A DNA stretch of 64,000 bases from Burkholderiales bacterium RIFCSPHIGHO2_01_FULL_63_240 (GTDB lineage: Bacteria > Pseudomonadota > Gammaproteobacteria > Burkholderiales > Burkholderiaceae_C), in assembly GCA_001770725.1 (NCBI GenBank), contig MERU01000010.1, forward strand, positions 62,001 through 126,000, written 5' to 3'. Position 1 is the first letter of the stretch. The number at the start of each line of letters is the position of its first letter. Position numbers and translations under genes: made by a program. This document shows positions 52,976 to 57,402 of this stretch, one piece after another. The notes below the pieces were generated by a model. The model ran no database searches, was not told the origin of the DNA, and saw only the letters and a program-made list of their open reading frames with translations.

Positions 52976-53129
52976 CGCTCGCCTGACAACGACCCATCAG
53001 AGGCTCGCAGGCCCACTCCCCCGCTGATCCAGAAAACGACCACCACATGACCACCCCTGTCTCCGTCCGCCCCGACCCGGGGTAGTGCCCCCTCGTTGCG
53101 ATGTCGCCCGGAACCCAGAAAACCGCCAC

Positions 53130-53145
53130 TGGCACGGCCAAAGCA
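53130..53145 (+). promoter_or_regulatory. Candidate sigma-54 promoter of the NIT-ANTAR gene
   Basis: TGGCACG-GCCA-AAGCA has a perfect -24 element and the -12 GC at correct spacing, but AA replaces TT before it. It could start transcription near 53156, about 30 nt before the ATG at 53185. No clear NtrC site lies upstream. Confidence 0.4.
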
Positions 53146-53174
53146 GGGACAATCAGGCTTGTCCGACGCCCTGC
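53143..53174 (+). promoter_or_regulatory. Hairpin directly upstream of the NIT-ANTAR gene
   Basis: GGACAA-TCAGGC-TTGTCC is a 6-bp stem with a six-base loop, and GCAGGG/CCCTGC around it can extend the pairing. A six-base loop is typical of ANTAR RNA targets, though the expected A at loop position 1 is absent. Confidence 0.35.
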
Positions 53175-53184
53175 TGCCCCCGCC

Positions 53185-54495
53185 ATGTCCCTGTCCGTTT
53201 CCAGCCTCGTTTTGCGCGCCAAGCAACTGGAGCTCGAGGGCATCCGGCACCTCGCGGGCCGCATCGAGCTGGTCGATGTCATCGGGCAGCTGATCCACGC
53301 CTTGCAGCGCGAGCGCGGGGCCACCAGCATCTTCCTGGCGTCCAGCGGTCAGCGCTTTGCCAGCGAACGCCAGGCCACGGTCGAGTCGGTCACGCCCATC
53401 GAGGCCCGCCTGCGCGAGCTGTTCGAGGCGCAGCTGGCCCCCGAGGCCGGTGCGTCGGCGCGCATGCTCTCGCTGATGGCCTGGGTGGTGCTGGACCTCG
53501 ACGCCCTGGCCGGCCTGCGTGCCCAGACCGTTGGGCACACGGTCACCGCGCACGTCGCGGTGACGGCATACAGTCGCCTGATCGCCGGCCTGGTCGAGCT
53601 CATCTTCCATGTGGCCGACGCCACCCTGCACCCCGGCATCTCGCGCCTGCTGGTGGCCTTCGTGCACCTGGTCCAGGGCAAGGAAGCCGCCGGCCAGGAG
53701 CGGGCCGTGGGCGCCCAGCTCTTCGCATCGGGGCGCTGCAGCGAGGCCGAGCAGCAGCGCGTCATCCACCTCATCGACGCGCAAGAGCGCAGCCTGCACG
53801 TCTTCGAGGAATTCACCGACCCGACCCTGCGCGGCCGCTGGCTGCAGATGCAGCTGACGCCCAACATGGCCCAGCTCGAGCGACTGCGCCGCAGCGTGTG
53901 CACGGCCCGCGCCGGCGCCAAGCTCGATGCCGCGCTCAGCGAAAGCTGGTTCGAGGTGACGAGTGCGCGCATCGGCGAGATGGAAGACATGCTCGTGGCC
54001 TTGGTGCACGCCCTGCGCCACGACTGCGACGCGCAGATCCGCGCCACCGAGCAGGACCTGCAGGATTCCGAAGGCCTGCTGCAGCGCCTGCGCCAGAACC
54101 CGCCTCGCCACAGCCACGCGGTCGACCGCTTCTTCAACGACGCCGAGCAGTCCGAAGCCCCGGTGCTGTCGAGCCTGCCCGATGGCCTCAAGGACGCACC
54201 CGGCACCGGCGCGGGCTCGGCCCTGGTCGAGCTGCTGCAGGACCAGTCCGCCCGCCTCAGCCGCATGGAGTCCGAGCTCGACACCGCGCGCCGCGCGCTG
54301 CACGAGCGCAAGGTCATCGAACGCGCCAAGGGTGCGCTGATGTCGCGCCTGGGCCTGAGCGAAGAAGAGGCCTTCCGCGCGCTGCAGAAGGCCTCGATGG
54401 ACCACAACAAACGGCTGCTCGACGTGGCCGAGGCCACCCTGGCCCTGCCGGATTTCGCTTTCGCTTCGCAGGTGCGCGCGAGCACCGAGCACTGA
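53185..54495 (+). CDS. nasR: NIT-ANTAR nitrate-responsive antiterminator (NasR type)
   Basis: A 436-residue RNA-binding regulator. The NIT domain (about 10-330, helical; VDVIGQLIHALQRERGATSIFLAS with the conserved RERG) senses nitrate or nitrite. The C-terminal ANTAR domain (about 370-430: ERKVIERAKGALMSRLGLSE, EEAFRALQKASMDHNKRL) is linked by a coiled coil. In Klebsiella NasR such a protein prevents terminator formation in the leader of the nitrate-assimilation operon. The nirB leader here is the probable target. ATG at 53185 is preferred because the NIT domain begins just after it; ATG at 53101 would add 28 residues. Confidence 0.88.
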   Translation: MSLSVSSLVLRAKQLELEGIRHLAGRIELVDVIGQLIHALQRERGATSIFLASSGQRFASERQATVESVTPIEARLRELFEAQLAPEAGASARMLSLMAWVVLDLDALAGLRAQTVGHTVTAHVAVTAYSRLIAGLVELIFHVADATLHPGISRLLVAFVHLVQGKEAAGQERAVGAQLFASGRCSEAEQQRVIHLIDAQERSLHVFEEFTDPTLRGRWLQMQLTPNMAQLERLRRSVCTARAGAKLDAALSESWFEVTSARIGEMEDMLVALVHALRHDCDAQIRATEQDLQDSEGLLQRLRQNPPRHSHAVDRFFNDAEQSEAPVLSSLPDGLKDAPGTGAGSALVELLQDQSARLSRMESELDTARRALHERKVIERAKGALMSRLGLSEEEAFRALQKASMDHNKRLLDVAEATLALPDFAFASQVRASTEH

Positions 54496-54535: not shown

Positions 54536-55264
54536 TCAGCCACCACCGCTGTTGCGGCCATCGCGCTCGACCAGGAAGCGCGCCTGGGCGCGCATGGCCC
54601 GCTCTTGCAGCGGCGCATCGACTTGGGTGTCCTGCGTCATCAGCTCGATGAGCCGGGCCGTCACGGCCTCCTGATCCCCGAACAACTGCAGCGCCGCCTG
54701 TGCGCCGAAGTGGTCGTGCCGCATCACCTGCAGCGCCTGCAGGTCGCGGGCCATGTCGTCCACCGTGGTGGGCGACTGCGCCGACTGGATGCGCTGGCGC
54801 ACCGCCTCCTGGTAGCGATCGAAACGCTGGGCCAGGTCCAGCGCCTGGACCTGAGCGGGGGGCGGCAGGTTGGCGGCGGCTTCGCGGGCCAGGGCGTTGA
54901 ACTGCTCGGGCGTGCTGAAGGCCACCAGCTGCTCCAGCGTCACCACCGTGTCGGCGTCCAGCGCCAGGGCACCCGAGGCATCGGTGCGGAAAGGTTTGAC
55001 GGTGCCGATGCGCACGGGGCCGTCCTCGCCCAGGCCTTGAAGGCCGGTGCCCATGGCGTCCTGAGCGGGCGTCGGCACGCCCGGCTGGATCCAGCGGTCC
55101 GCTGCAGCGGGCTGGGCCACGGGCGCGTTCGCCGCAGGTGGCGAGCCGCCCGAGTCTGGCCCCAGCCAGCGCACCAGCACCAGGGTCAGCAAGCCCACCA
55201 CCGCCAACAGCGCAAGGGCCCACCGAGTCCAGGGCCGACGGCGCGACGTGATCGAGATGACCAT
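54536..55264 (-). CDS. Membrane-anchored protein resembling a lipase-specific foldase (Lif)
   Basis: A 242-residue protein with an N-terminal membrane helix (WALALLAVVGLLTLVLVRW, about 14-32), a Pro/Ala linker and a helical periplasmic domain. Segments LPPPAQVQALDLAQRFDRYQEA and ALQVMRHDHFGAQAALQLFGDQEAV recall lipase chaperones of the LifO group, which are membrane-anchored foldases. The family hallmark RxxFDYxLSAxGE is not found and the length is short (Lif about 340). So it is a divergent or reduced member, or an unrelated helical protein. GGAGG stands before the ATG. It is 13 bp downstream of the polyester hydrolase gene, so both are one transcript. Confidence 0.55.
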   Translation of the reverse strand: MVISITSRRRPWTRWALALLAVVGLLTLVLVRWLGPDSGGSPPAANAPVAQPAAADRWIQPGVPTPAQDAMGTGLQGLGEDGPVRIGTVKPFRTDASGALALDADTVVTLEQLVAFSTPEQFNALAREAAANLPPPAQVQALDLAQRFDRYQEAVRQRIQSAQSPTTVDDMARDLQALQVMRHDHFGAQAALQLFGDQEAVTARLIELMTQDTQVDAPLQERAMRAQARFLVERDGRNSGGG

Positions 55265-55277
55265 GGCGCGCCTCCGC

Positions 55278-56129
55278 TCAGTAAGGGCAGTTCTGGTTGT
55301 AGCGGTCGAAGACCAGCGCCGTCGCGTAGCGCGTGTGCTCGGCGCCGCACAGGAAAGTCGAGTAGCGGGTGTCGCCATCGACGAAGCGCTTCATCCAGGC
55401 CACGCCATAGCGCCCGATGGGCGTGTTGGTCGAGTTCGGCGAGAAGTGCGTGCCGCCGTTGAGCTCGCCATAGGCCTTCGTGGTGGAGCCTGGCAGTGAC
55501 GCATAGAACGGACGCGCGTGCGCGGCCACCGATGCAATGGTGTCGCCATCGGCGCCGATGATCATCGTCGGCACACGCACCGTCGAGAAGGACGTGCTCG
55601 AGTTCCACGGCGTCAACGGGTAGGAGGCCTTGAGCGTCGGGTTGTCGCGAGCGGCGATCAGTGCGCCCCCACCGCCCATCGAGTGGCCAGCCACGGCCAG
55701 GCGGGTCGTGTCGATGCGCGCCTTGACCGCCGAGGTCGACGAATTCACGACATAGCTCAGCGCGGCCATCAACTGGTTGGCGCGGCTGGCCGGCTGGTCA
55801 AGCGTGGTCAGGGTGTTGAGCGTGATGACCACGAAGCCGTGCGTGGCGATGCGCCGGCCCAGCCAAGCGATGCTGGTTTCCGTGGCGGTGAAACCGGGGC
55901 TGATGGCGATGACGCCGTAACGTGCCTGCGTGGTCGGGTAGTAGATGGTGCCGCCGCCAAAGCCACGTGGCAGCGACACAGAAGCCGTGCTCACGCTGAG
56001 CGGGCCGGCGGTGGCGTTGAGAGACGCCGAGGTGGGTGCGGTGGTCTGTGCGAAGCCGCTGACGGCGGTGGTGACGAGGGATGCGACCAGGGCGGTGCGC
56101 AAGGCAGAGCGGATGGGTGCGTTCTTCAT
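55278..56129 (-). CDS. Secreted polyester hydrolase (cutinase/PETase-like)
   Basis: A 283-residue secreted alpha/beta hydrolase, close in sequence to Ideonella sakaiensis PETase as I recall it. Signal peptide ends FAQ at residue 28. Shared blocks include [27 protein letters not shown] and DTRYSTF. Catalytic triad: Ser150 in GHSMGGGG, Asp196 in ADGDT, His228 in GGTHF. It has His at the PETase Trp159 position and Phe at Ser238, as in ordinary cutinases, and Phe80 where PETase has Tyr87. The extra PETase disulfide is missing (Ala193, Ser230), but the C-terminal one (Cys261-Cys281) is kept. It may act on aliphatic polyesters or cutin; PET activity is unproven. Confidence 0.88.
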
Positions 56130-56277
56130 GTGTCCTCTTCGTTGTCGGTTGGATGCATCGGTGAACGGGGCCCGCCGCTCCGGCTGAAGCCGGCTCGAGG
56201 GGCCTACGCACTGTGCTTGCCGAGGAGAGGCACGTGAAGAAACGTCACGGACAAAAAGCAGACCCGAAGGGACAGCT

Positions 56278-57402
56278 TCACTGCAGGTGCAGGCGCGCGC
56301 CGTCCTGCGCCATGCGGTACTCGCGTGGCGTCAGGCCTGTCCAGCGCTTGAAGGCATGGCGAAAGCTCACCACGTCGCTGAAGCCCAGCGCCTCGGCGAT
56401 GTCCTCGGTGCTCAAGCGCGTGCCCACCAGGTAATCGATGGCCAACCGTTTGCGCACCGCGGCCAGCAGCTCCGAGAAACCAGCGCCTTCGGCCTCCAGC
56501 CTGCGGCGCAGCGTGCGCGACGTCATGCACAGCCGGCTGGCCACCTCTTCGATCGACGGGAACTGGCCGCCGTGGCGGGTGAGTTCTTCGTACACGCGAC
56601 GGGTCATGCCCGCGCCCCAGCTCGCTTCCTCGAGCAGGCGCGCGCACTGCACCGACAGGTGCGAGGCCGTGATGGGGTTGGCCAGTTGGGGCGCACGCGT
56701 CAGCAAGGTGGCATCGAAGCGCAGGGTGTTGGCCGACTGCTCGAAGAGCACCGGCGCGTGCAGCATGCGCGACCACGCCCCGGTGTCCGCCGGTGCAGGC
56801 CCCATGTAGCCGGCCTGCTTCGGACAGAAGGACTCGCCCATCACGTCCTGACCGATGCGCACATGGGCGGCCAACTGCAGGTCGATCATGAAGCGGTAGA
56901 GCGCCTCGTCGACATCGGGCCAGGGGAAGGCCGCGCGCTCCGGGAAGGTCCACACCGCCTCGTCGCCCGCCACCTCCCAGCGCAGCGGCAGCATGCCGCC
57001 TGAGAGCGGGTGGTAGCGGATGGCGCGCTCCCACACCTGGCGCAAAGACTCCGAGCACAACAGGGCATAGCCATACATGCCGTAGTGCGTCACGCCCAGC
57101 CGCTCGCCCACGCGCAGCCCCAGGTCGGGCATCGGCAGCAGGCGCACCGCGTTGCGGCTGGCACGCAGGAACTGCGCGCACGAGGTCATCGTGAACGGGT
57201 TGCTGACGCTCTCGGGCAGCAGGCCGGTGCCGGCCAGCACCTCGTGGGGGTCGGCACCCAGCTCGGTCATCACGCCCAGCAGCACCGAGAGCTTGGACGG
57301 AGGGAAGCGCCGGTCGCCTGCCCGCGCAAGCAACATGGCGGTGCCGCGCCCTTCGGTGGAGGCGCGCAGCGGCTGCGCCAGATCGGGGTCGATGAGCTGC
57401 AT
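56278..57402 (-). CDS. AraC-family regulator
   Basis: A 374-residue regulator with an Arabinose_bd-like N-terminal domain ([20 protein letters not shown]) and a C-terminal double helix-turn-helix ([53 protein letters not shown]). AGGAGG precedes the ATG at 57400-57402. It lies 148 bp upstream of the hydrolase-foldase pair on the same strand and probably controls it; the effector is unknown. This group of AraC proteins often regulates lipid or alkane genes. Confidence 0.92.

Follow-up and report, generated by a model that had tools for sequence, protein, structure and literature searches.

We analyzed a 64,000-nucleotide stretch of contig MERU01000010.1 from Burkholderiales bacterium RIFCSPHIGHO2_01_FULL_63_240 (hereafter, the window), with a focus on a gene of the poly(ethylene terephthalate) hydrolase (PETase) family and an adjoining gene for a relative of lipase-specific foldases (Lifs), which we refer to as a mini-Lif. 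Open reading frames (ORFs) and their translations bear out the layout given in a preliminary description of this DNA. Three co-directional genes lie on the minus strand, with an AraC-family regulator (56278..57402, 374 amino acids; Arabinose_bd, Pfam accession PF12625, and HTH_18, Pfam accession PF12833) upstream of the hydrolase (55278..56129, 283 amino acids) and the mini-Lif (54536..55264, 242 amino acids). The 13-bp gap between the hydrolase stop codon and the mini-Lif ATG (55265..55277) contains, by eye, a Shine-Dalgarno-like GGAGG (55271-55275) on the coding strand, 6 bases ahead of the ATG.

The hydrolase is a member of the PETase family (Pfam accession PF12740, 353 bits against a cut-off of 28) with a GHSMG elbow and a catalytic triad, Ser150, Asp196, and His228, that is invariant in an alignment of 19 hydrolases, this one included. 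A signal peptide is apparent by eye at approximately residues 1-27. The enzyme is thus of the predicted secreted cutinase/PETase type that the preliminary description had recognized. Hydrolysis of PET or other polyesters remains a putative activity. Against the bis(hydroxyethyl) terephthalate hydrolase family (NCBIfam accession NF051441), the protein scores 350.6 bits, below the curated cut-off of 520; the Ideonella-type PETase itself reaches only 311.9 bits. We identified the hydrolase in 3 of 369 genomes across the class (own genome included; E ≤ 1e-30). PETases are therefore rare, and their taxonomic spread is thinly sampled.

A half-length relative of lipase-specific foldases

The 242-amino acid protein is a Lif relative by homology and fold, but is not a canonical Lif. 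It scores 25.6 bits (E 1.4e-5) against the Lif family (Pfam accession PF03280, curated cut-off 25.7), and a longer open frame of the same gene passes the cut-off in a genome search at 25.7 bits. All 20 aligned mini-Lif members match PF03280 at E ≤ 0.01, and hhalign aligns the mini-Lif profile to 13 full-length Lifs with an E-value of 1.5e-20. In a structural alignment of the predicted model, the best Protein Data Bank (PDB) rows are three Lif structures (2es4, 9g8u, and 6gsf). The alignment covers residues 65-232 and 53-219 (entry numbering) of 285- and 278-residue chains, and the 6gsf row covers model residues 82-157. A phmmer search of PDB sequences with the window protein returned no match up to E 10, so the structural match rests on fold. 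The profile search and structure prediction that had been proposed as checks thus both point to the chaperone family.

The model suggests an anchored helical protein. Residues 12-33 (55166..55231, minus strand, as for the segments that follow) form a predicted helix, modeled with low confidence (pLDDT), whose hydrophobic sequence makes it a likely inner-membrane anchor. Residues 35-83 (55016..55162) are partly proline- and alanine-rich and have no predicted structure (pLDDT <50). Together these segments fit a membrane anchor plus linker, in keeping with the membrane-anchored helical protein described previously. Residues 90-130 (54875..54997) are MD1-like in the model and structural alignment and carry a degenerate foldase motif (LEQ where many Lifs have FDY). 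Residues 135-239 (54548..54862) correspond to the initial portion of the extended helical domain (EHD), the rest of which is absent along with MD2. Domain names and the RxxFDY(F/C)L(S/T)A foldase motif follow PMC7046727.

This truncation is a general property of mini-Lifs, which keep MD1 and part of the EHD and end about halfway through the folding domain. PF03280 has 192 positions, of which the window protein covers 3-80, the neighbor of the Ideonella-type PETase 1-100, and a full-length Lif (L115) 1-192. Beyond the shared core, 57 distinct mini-Lifs have 0-19 residues (a count that excludes duplicates and matches spanning fewer than 150 profile positions), versus 49-116 in 16 full-length Lifs. 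No mini-Lif has a complete MD1-EHD-MD2 folding domain or contains the RxxFDY(F/C)L(S/T)A motif. The motif tyrosine is found in 0 of 57 mini-Lifs, which upholds the earlier remark that the Lif hallmark is missing, and in 8 of 16 full-length Lifs; of the 8 full-length proteins that lack it, 6 are accompanied by a GHSxGG ORF in their stretch.

Mini-Lifs can coexist with conventional Lifs. One locus (L215) has a mini-Lif and a full-length Lif side by side, each adjoining its own hydrolase type, and the genome that contains the window encodes a separate longer Lif (309 amino acids, 54.3 bits), whose stretch also contains a GHSHGG ORF. Mini-Lifs are set apart from full-length Lifs in a quick tree that carries a long-branch warning, save for one full-length protein (L108) placed among the mini-Lifs.

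Recurrence of the hydrolase/mini-Lif pair

We searched 100 relatives for the partner and identified matches in 21 genomes (own included), confined to 1 of 59 genera. The nearest partner found in these relatives is 77% identical and comes from a same-genus (Aquabacterium-like) genome. A PETase-family ORF adjoins the partner in 19 of the 20 match rows fetched (own included; 27 rows in total). A hydrolase-profile search of 399 genomes of the family (E ≤ 1e-40, scoring up to six first-look candidates per genome) identified at least 22 places in 11 genomes, and a mini-Lif lies within ~1.5 kb at 19 of these 22. At two of the three remaining places, the gene is the second of a tandem pair whose first gene has a mini-Lif; the third (L149) has no mini-Lif within ~1.5 kb, nor in ~4 kb on either side (L224). 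Another family of the class, represented by 21 genomes, includes 6 genomes that encode a PETase, and in all 6 a mini-Lif lies downstream, with weak profile scores (32-48 bits). The hydrolase-foldase order, which the preliminary description had proposed to look for in other Burkholderiales, thus recurs in relatives.

In wider sets, the pairing is unevenly distributed. The best 80 of at least 504 confirmed named loci include 6 with a mini-Lif: two from Aquabacterium, two from Steroidobacter, one from a Hydrogenophaga metagenome-assembled genome (MAG), and one from a MAG named Syntrophaceae. The remaining 74 loci, all actinobacterial by name, have no mini-Lif in the fetched stretch. We also assembled 105 distinct non-actinobacterial PETase-family genes, leaving out duplicates, scores below 170 bits, and cores shorter than 200 residues. 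A mini-Lif is encoded within 1.3 kb of 56 of these genes, 44 lack one, and 5 are undecidable; this proportion is not a census, as Aquabacterium and Piscinibacter are overrepresented in the set, which was found in part through the partner and was scored with a hydrolase profile built from partnered genes. The 44 genes without a mini-Lif break the rule, suggested by the 19 of 22 places above, that every proteobacterial PETase has one. The 56 pairs comprise 35 that are co-directional with the mini-Lif downstream, 18 that are divergent, and 3 with other arrangements.

In a quick hydrolase tree, for which 8 of the 74 actinobacterial loci supplied 9 outgroup rows, the mini-Lif label needs 12 changes, versus 38.5 in shuffles. 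An Aquabacterium paralogue clade of 31 rows accounts for 30 of the 44 genes without a mini-Lif, and its 31st row is undecidable. These loci fall among L214-L243, and some of the proteins have GNSMG or no G.SMG elbow. The other 14 genes are scattered, and six of them (L139, L145, L168, L169, L182, and the second L035 gene) are additional members of clusters in which a mini-Lif is present.

Several loci depart from the simple pair. A single mini-Lif lies between two same-direction PETase genes at L104, L136, and L143. In one genome (L177 and L182), each of two tandem PETase genes reads as a pair of overlapping frames, a pattern expected after a frameshift, which may be real or an assembly error. 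L035, on a 182-kb contig of the MAG named Syntrophaceae, has two PETase genes and a mini-Lif and reflects either far transfer or a binning error. At L111 and L114, the mini-Lif lies directly downstream of an esterase ORF and has an AraC-like ORF (by eye) on its other side; the L111 esterase is of the polyhydroxybutyrate depolymerase type (Pfam accession PF10503, 100.3 bits), and that of L114 is alike by eye. Finally, L019 contains an orphan mini-Lif (1486-2244, 253 amino acids) with no adjoining hydrolase, flanked by ORFs that resemble, by eye, ABC-F and phosphotransferase system enzyme I proteins.

The pairing apparently extends to a well-known PETase. One locus (L141) encodes a 290-amino acid ORF that matches PDB poly(ethylene terephthalate) hydrolase entries over residues 1-290 (best E 2e-190) and that we take, from its sequence, to be the Ideonella sakaiensis PETase. 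Its divergent neighbor, 216 bp away, is a 251-amino acid mini-Lif (60.1 bits to PF03280). We identified a near copy of this locus on a Piscinibacter gummiphilus plasmid (NZ_CP136337.1), with 282 of 290 hydrolase residues and 251 of 251 mini-Lif residues identical and 99.3% DNA identity over 3489 bases. In the plasmid record, the hydrolase is annotated ‘poly(ethylene terephthalate) hydrolase’ and the mini-Lif ‘lipase secretion chaperone’, a label that is also given to another protein nearby. On the plasmid, the PETase copy and two mini-Lifs (~157000-170000; L153/L188) lie between IS1071 and IS91-like transposase genes.

Both genes of the pair evolve under purifying selection. In 10 chosen pairs, the ratio of nonsynonymous to synonymous substitution rates (dN/dS, NG86) lies at 0.17-0.35 in the partner and at 0.09-0.23 in the hydrolase, and partners are 68-85% identical where hydrolases are 83-95% identical. 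These low ratios and the recurrence of the gene order in relatives imply that the arrangement did not arise by chance and rule out the partner being a spurious ORF in GC-rich DNA. Protein distances of hydrolase and partner correlate across 19 pairs (Mantel r 0.89, p 0.0001; 0.88 and 0.88 within two groups), a correlation computed without a housekeeping control and partly explained by shared ancestry of whole loci.

On the other side of the mini-Lif gene, 40 bases away, ends a convergent NIT-ANTAR gene (nitrate-sensing antiterminator type; 53101-54495, plus strand), with ORFs resembling nitrite reductase subunits (by eye) upstream of it.

Proposed role of the mini-Lif

We propose that the 242-amino acid protein is probably a shortened chaperone of the Lif type that serves the adjoining PETase-family hydrolase as its dedicated client and would act on its folding or secretion in the periplasm. 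In the proposed mechanism, the hydrolase would cross the inner membrane by Sec and meet the anchored mini-Lif in the periplasm through the MD1-like and half-EHD helices. The mini-Lif would help the hydrolase reach or keep an export-competent fold, or protect it from aggregation, and would then pass it to the type II secretion system; the genome has a GspD match at 591.6 bits. The AraC-family regulator may co-regulate the pair. Of the 56 distinct PETases with a mini-Lif, 15 have an AraC relative in the fetched stretch, versus 1 of the 44 without; both counts are lower bounds, as many stretches span only ~1.5 kb.

The preliminary description had suggested a Lif-like helper that assists the hydrolase in folding or keeps it at the cell surface. 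The chaperone-profile and fold matches and the conserved pairing, whose absence had been named as grounds for refutation, favor the first part of this suggestion. Surface retention was dropped, because a Lif-type N-terminal inner-membrane anchor would leave the remainder of the protein in the periplasm. The shortening relative to Lif, the reach to the Ideonella-type PETase, and the many PETase paralogues without a mini-Lif had been overlooked.

A dedicated folding chaperone has evidence against it as well as for it. PETases are active when produced in foreign hosts that have no mini-Lif, which speaks against a strict requirement, so the mini-Lif is probably an aid to yield and export. The missing hallmark motif also counts against a foldase. 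Because 8 of 16 full-length Lifs lack the tyrosine too, however, this loss carries less weight than had been assumed and is no proof that a chaperone role is absent. The main rival is a pure holdase or escort that binds nascent or folded hydrolase, blocks its aggregation or periplasmic action, and delivers it to the secretion apparatus while the folding path is unchanged. Lack of MD2 and the tyrosine would fit such a protein, as would PETase activity in other hosts and the report that the Pseudomonas aeruginosa Lif variant Y99A binds LipA without activating it. Yet purifying selection preserves the fold of the MD1-like and half-EHD parts and tyrosine loss is shared with full-length Lifs, and we consider a pure escort rather unlikely.

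The mini-Lif might alternatively serve a lipase or esterase that is encoded at another locus, and adjoin the hydrolase only through shared regulation. The esterase-linked mini-Lifs of L111 and L114 and the orphan of L019 are consistent with such a client, but the PETase pairing occurs in several genera and in both orientations, hydrolase and partner distances correlate, and the longer Lif in the same genome has a GHSHGG ORF in its own stretch. We regard this explanation as distinctly improbable. Even less credible is a decayed Lif left over from a former lipase operon and now functionless. The shortened form and fast divergence of the partner would be expected of such a remnant, but the dN/dS values from the same 10 pairs, the position of mini-Lifs on one side of the Lif tree (L108 aside), and their persistence in distant genera argue against it.

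We lean slightly toward a broader reading: that many proteobacterial PETases, including the Ideonella sakaiensis enzyme, own a dedicated half-length Lif foldase that works without MD2 or the tyrosine. Such a protein would be the first client-specific chaperone of polyester hydrolases in this family; it may have accompanied the ancestor of proteobacterial PETases, with later loss from some paralogue clades.

Comparison with known systems

Lif chaperones are already known as a kind, and RefSeq already calls two mini-Lifs ‘lipase secretion chaperone’. Older work on Acidovorax and Roseateles polyester depolymerases may mention such a gene. The titles and abstract openings that we searched, in papers outside subscription, describe neither a pairing of mini-Lif and PETase genes nor a half-length Lif, nor a mini-Lif beside the Ideonella enzyme, consistent with the earlier impression that the pairing is unfamiliar. 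The words chaperone and operon are absent from PMC9350882 (Ple628/Ple629) and PMC12442448 (HaloPETase), as is foldase from the main text of a 2025 review. This review reports that Ideonella sakaiensis PETase misfolds and forms inclusion bodies and that co-expressed GroEL/ES gives a gain. For this widely studied and hard-to-produce enzyme, a native partner encoded beside its gene would be a direct co-expression candidate.

Mini-Lifs share with canonical Lifs (Lif/LipB/LipH; PF03280) an N-terminal anchor, a linker, MD1-like and EHD helices, and a gene that adjoins a secreted alpha/beta hydrolase gene. They differ in comprising approximately the first half of the folding domain, with neither MD2 nor the FDY tyrosine (57 of 57), and in a putative client gene that encodes a PF12740 protein, not a family I.1/I.2 lipase. 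According to a 2026 LipH paper, MD2 makes the stable client contacts and MD1 the transient ones. Mini-Lifs, if they bind a client, must therefore use the other half (MD1/half-EHD), and would bear on the question of a minimal Lif by showing which part suffices.

Other known systems resemble the window in part. For Lip1-LipO of Burkholderia vietnamiensis (PMC13101487), genes for a Lif-type chaperone and for type II secretion were hit in a screen for lost extracellular degradation of a polyester, medium-chain-length polyhydroxyalkanoate; the pair is described as a triacylglycerol lipase with a lipase chaperone, and the enzyme is not a PETase. Actinobacterial PF12740-type hydrolases (Thermobifida, Streptomyces, and others) have the same family and triad as the window hydrolase but lack a mini-Lif in the fetched stretch (74 of 74). 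The Ideonella sakaiensis locus, like the window, has a PETase that adjoins a mini-Lif, but the two genes are divergent, and the hydrolase belongs to another tree clade, with a GWSMG elbow and, by eye, two more cysteines.
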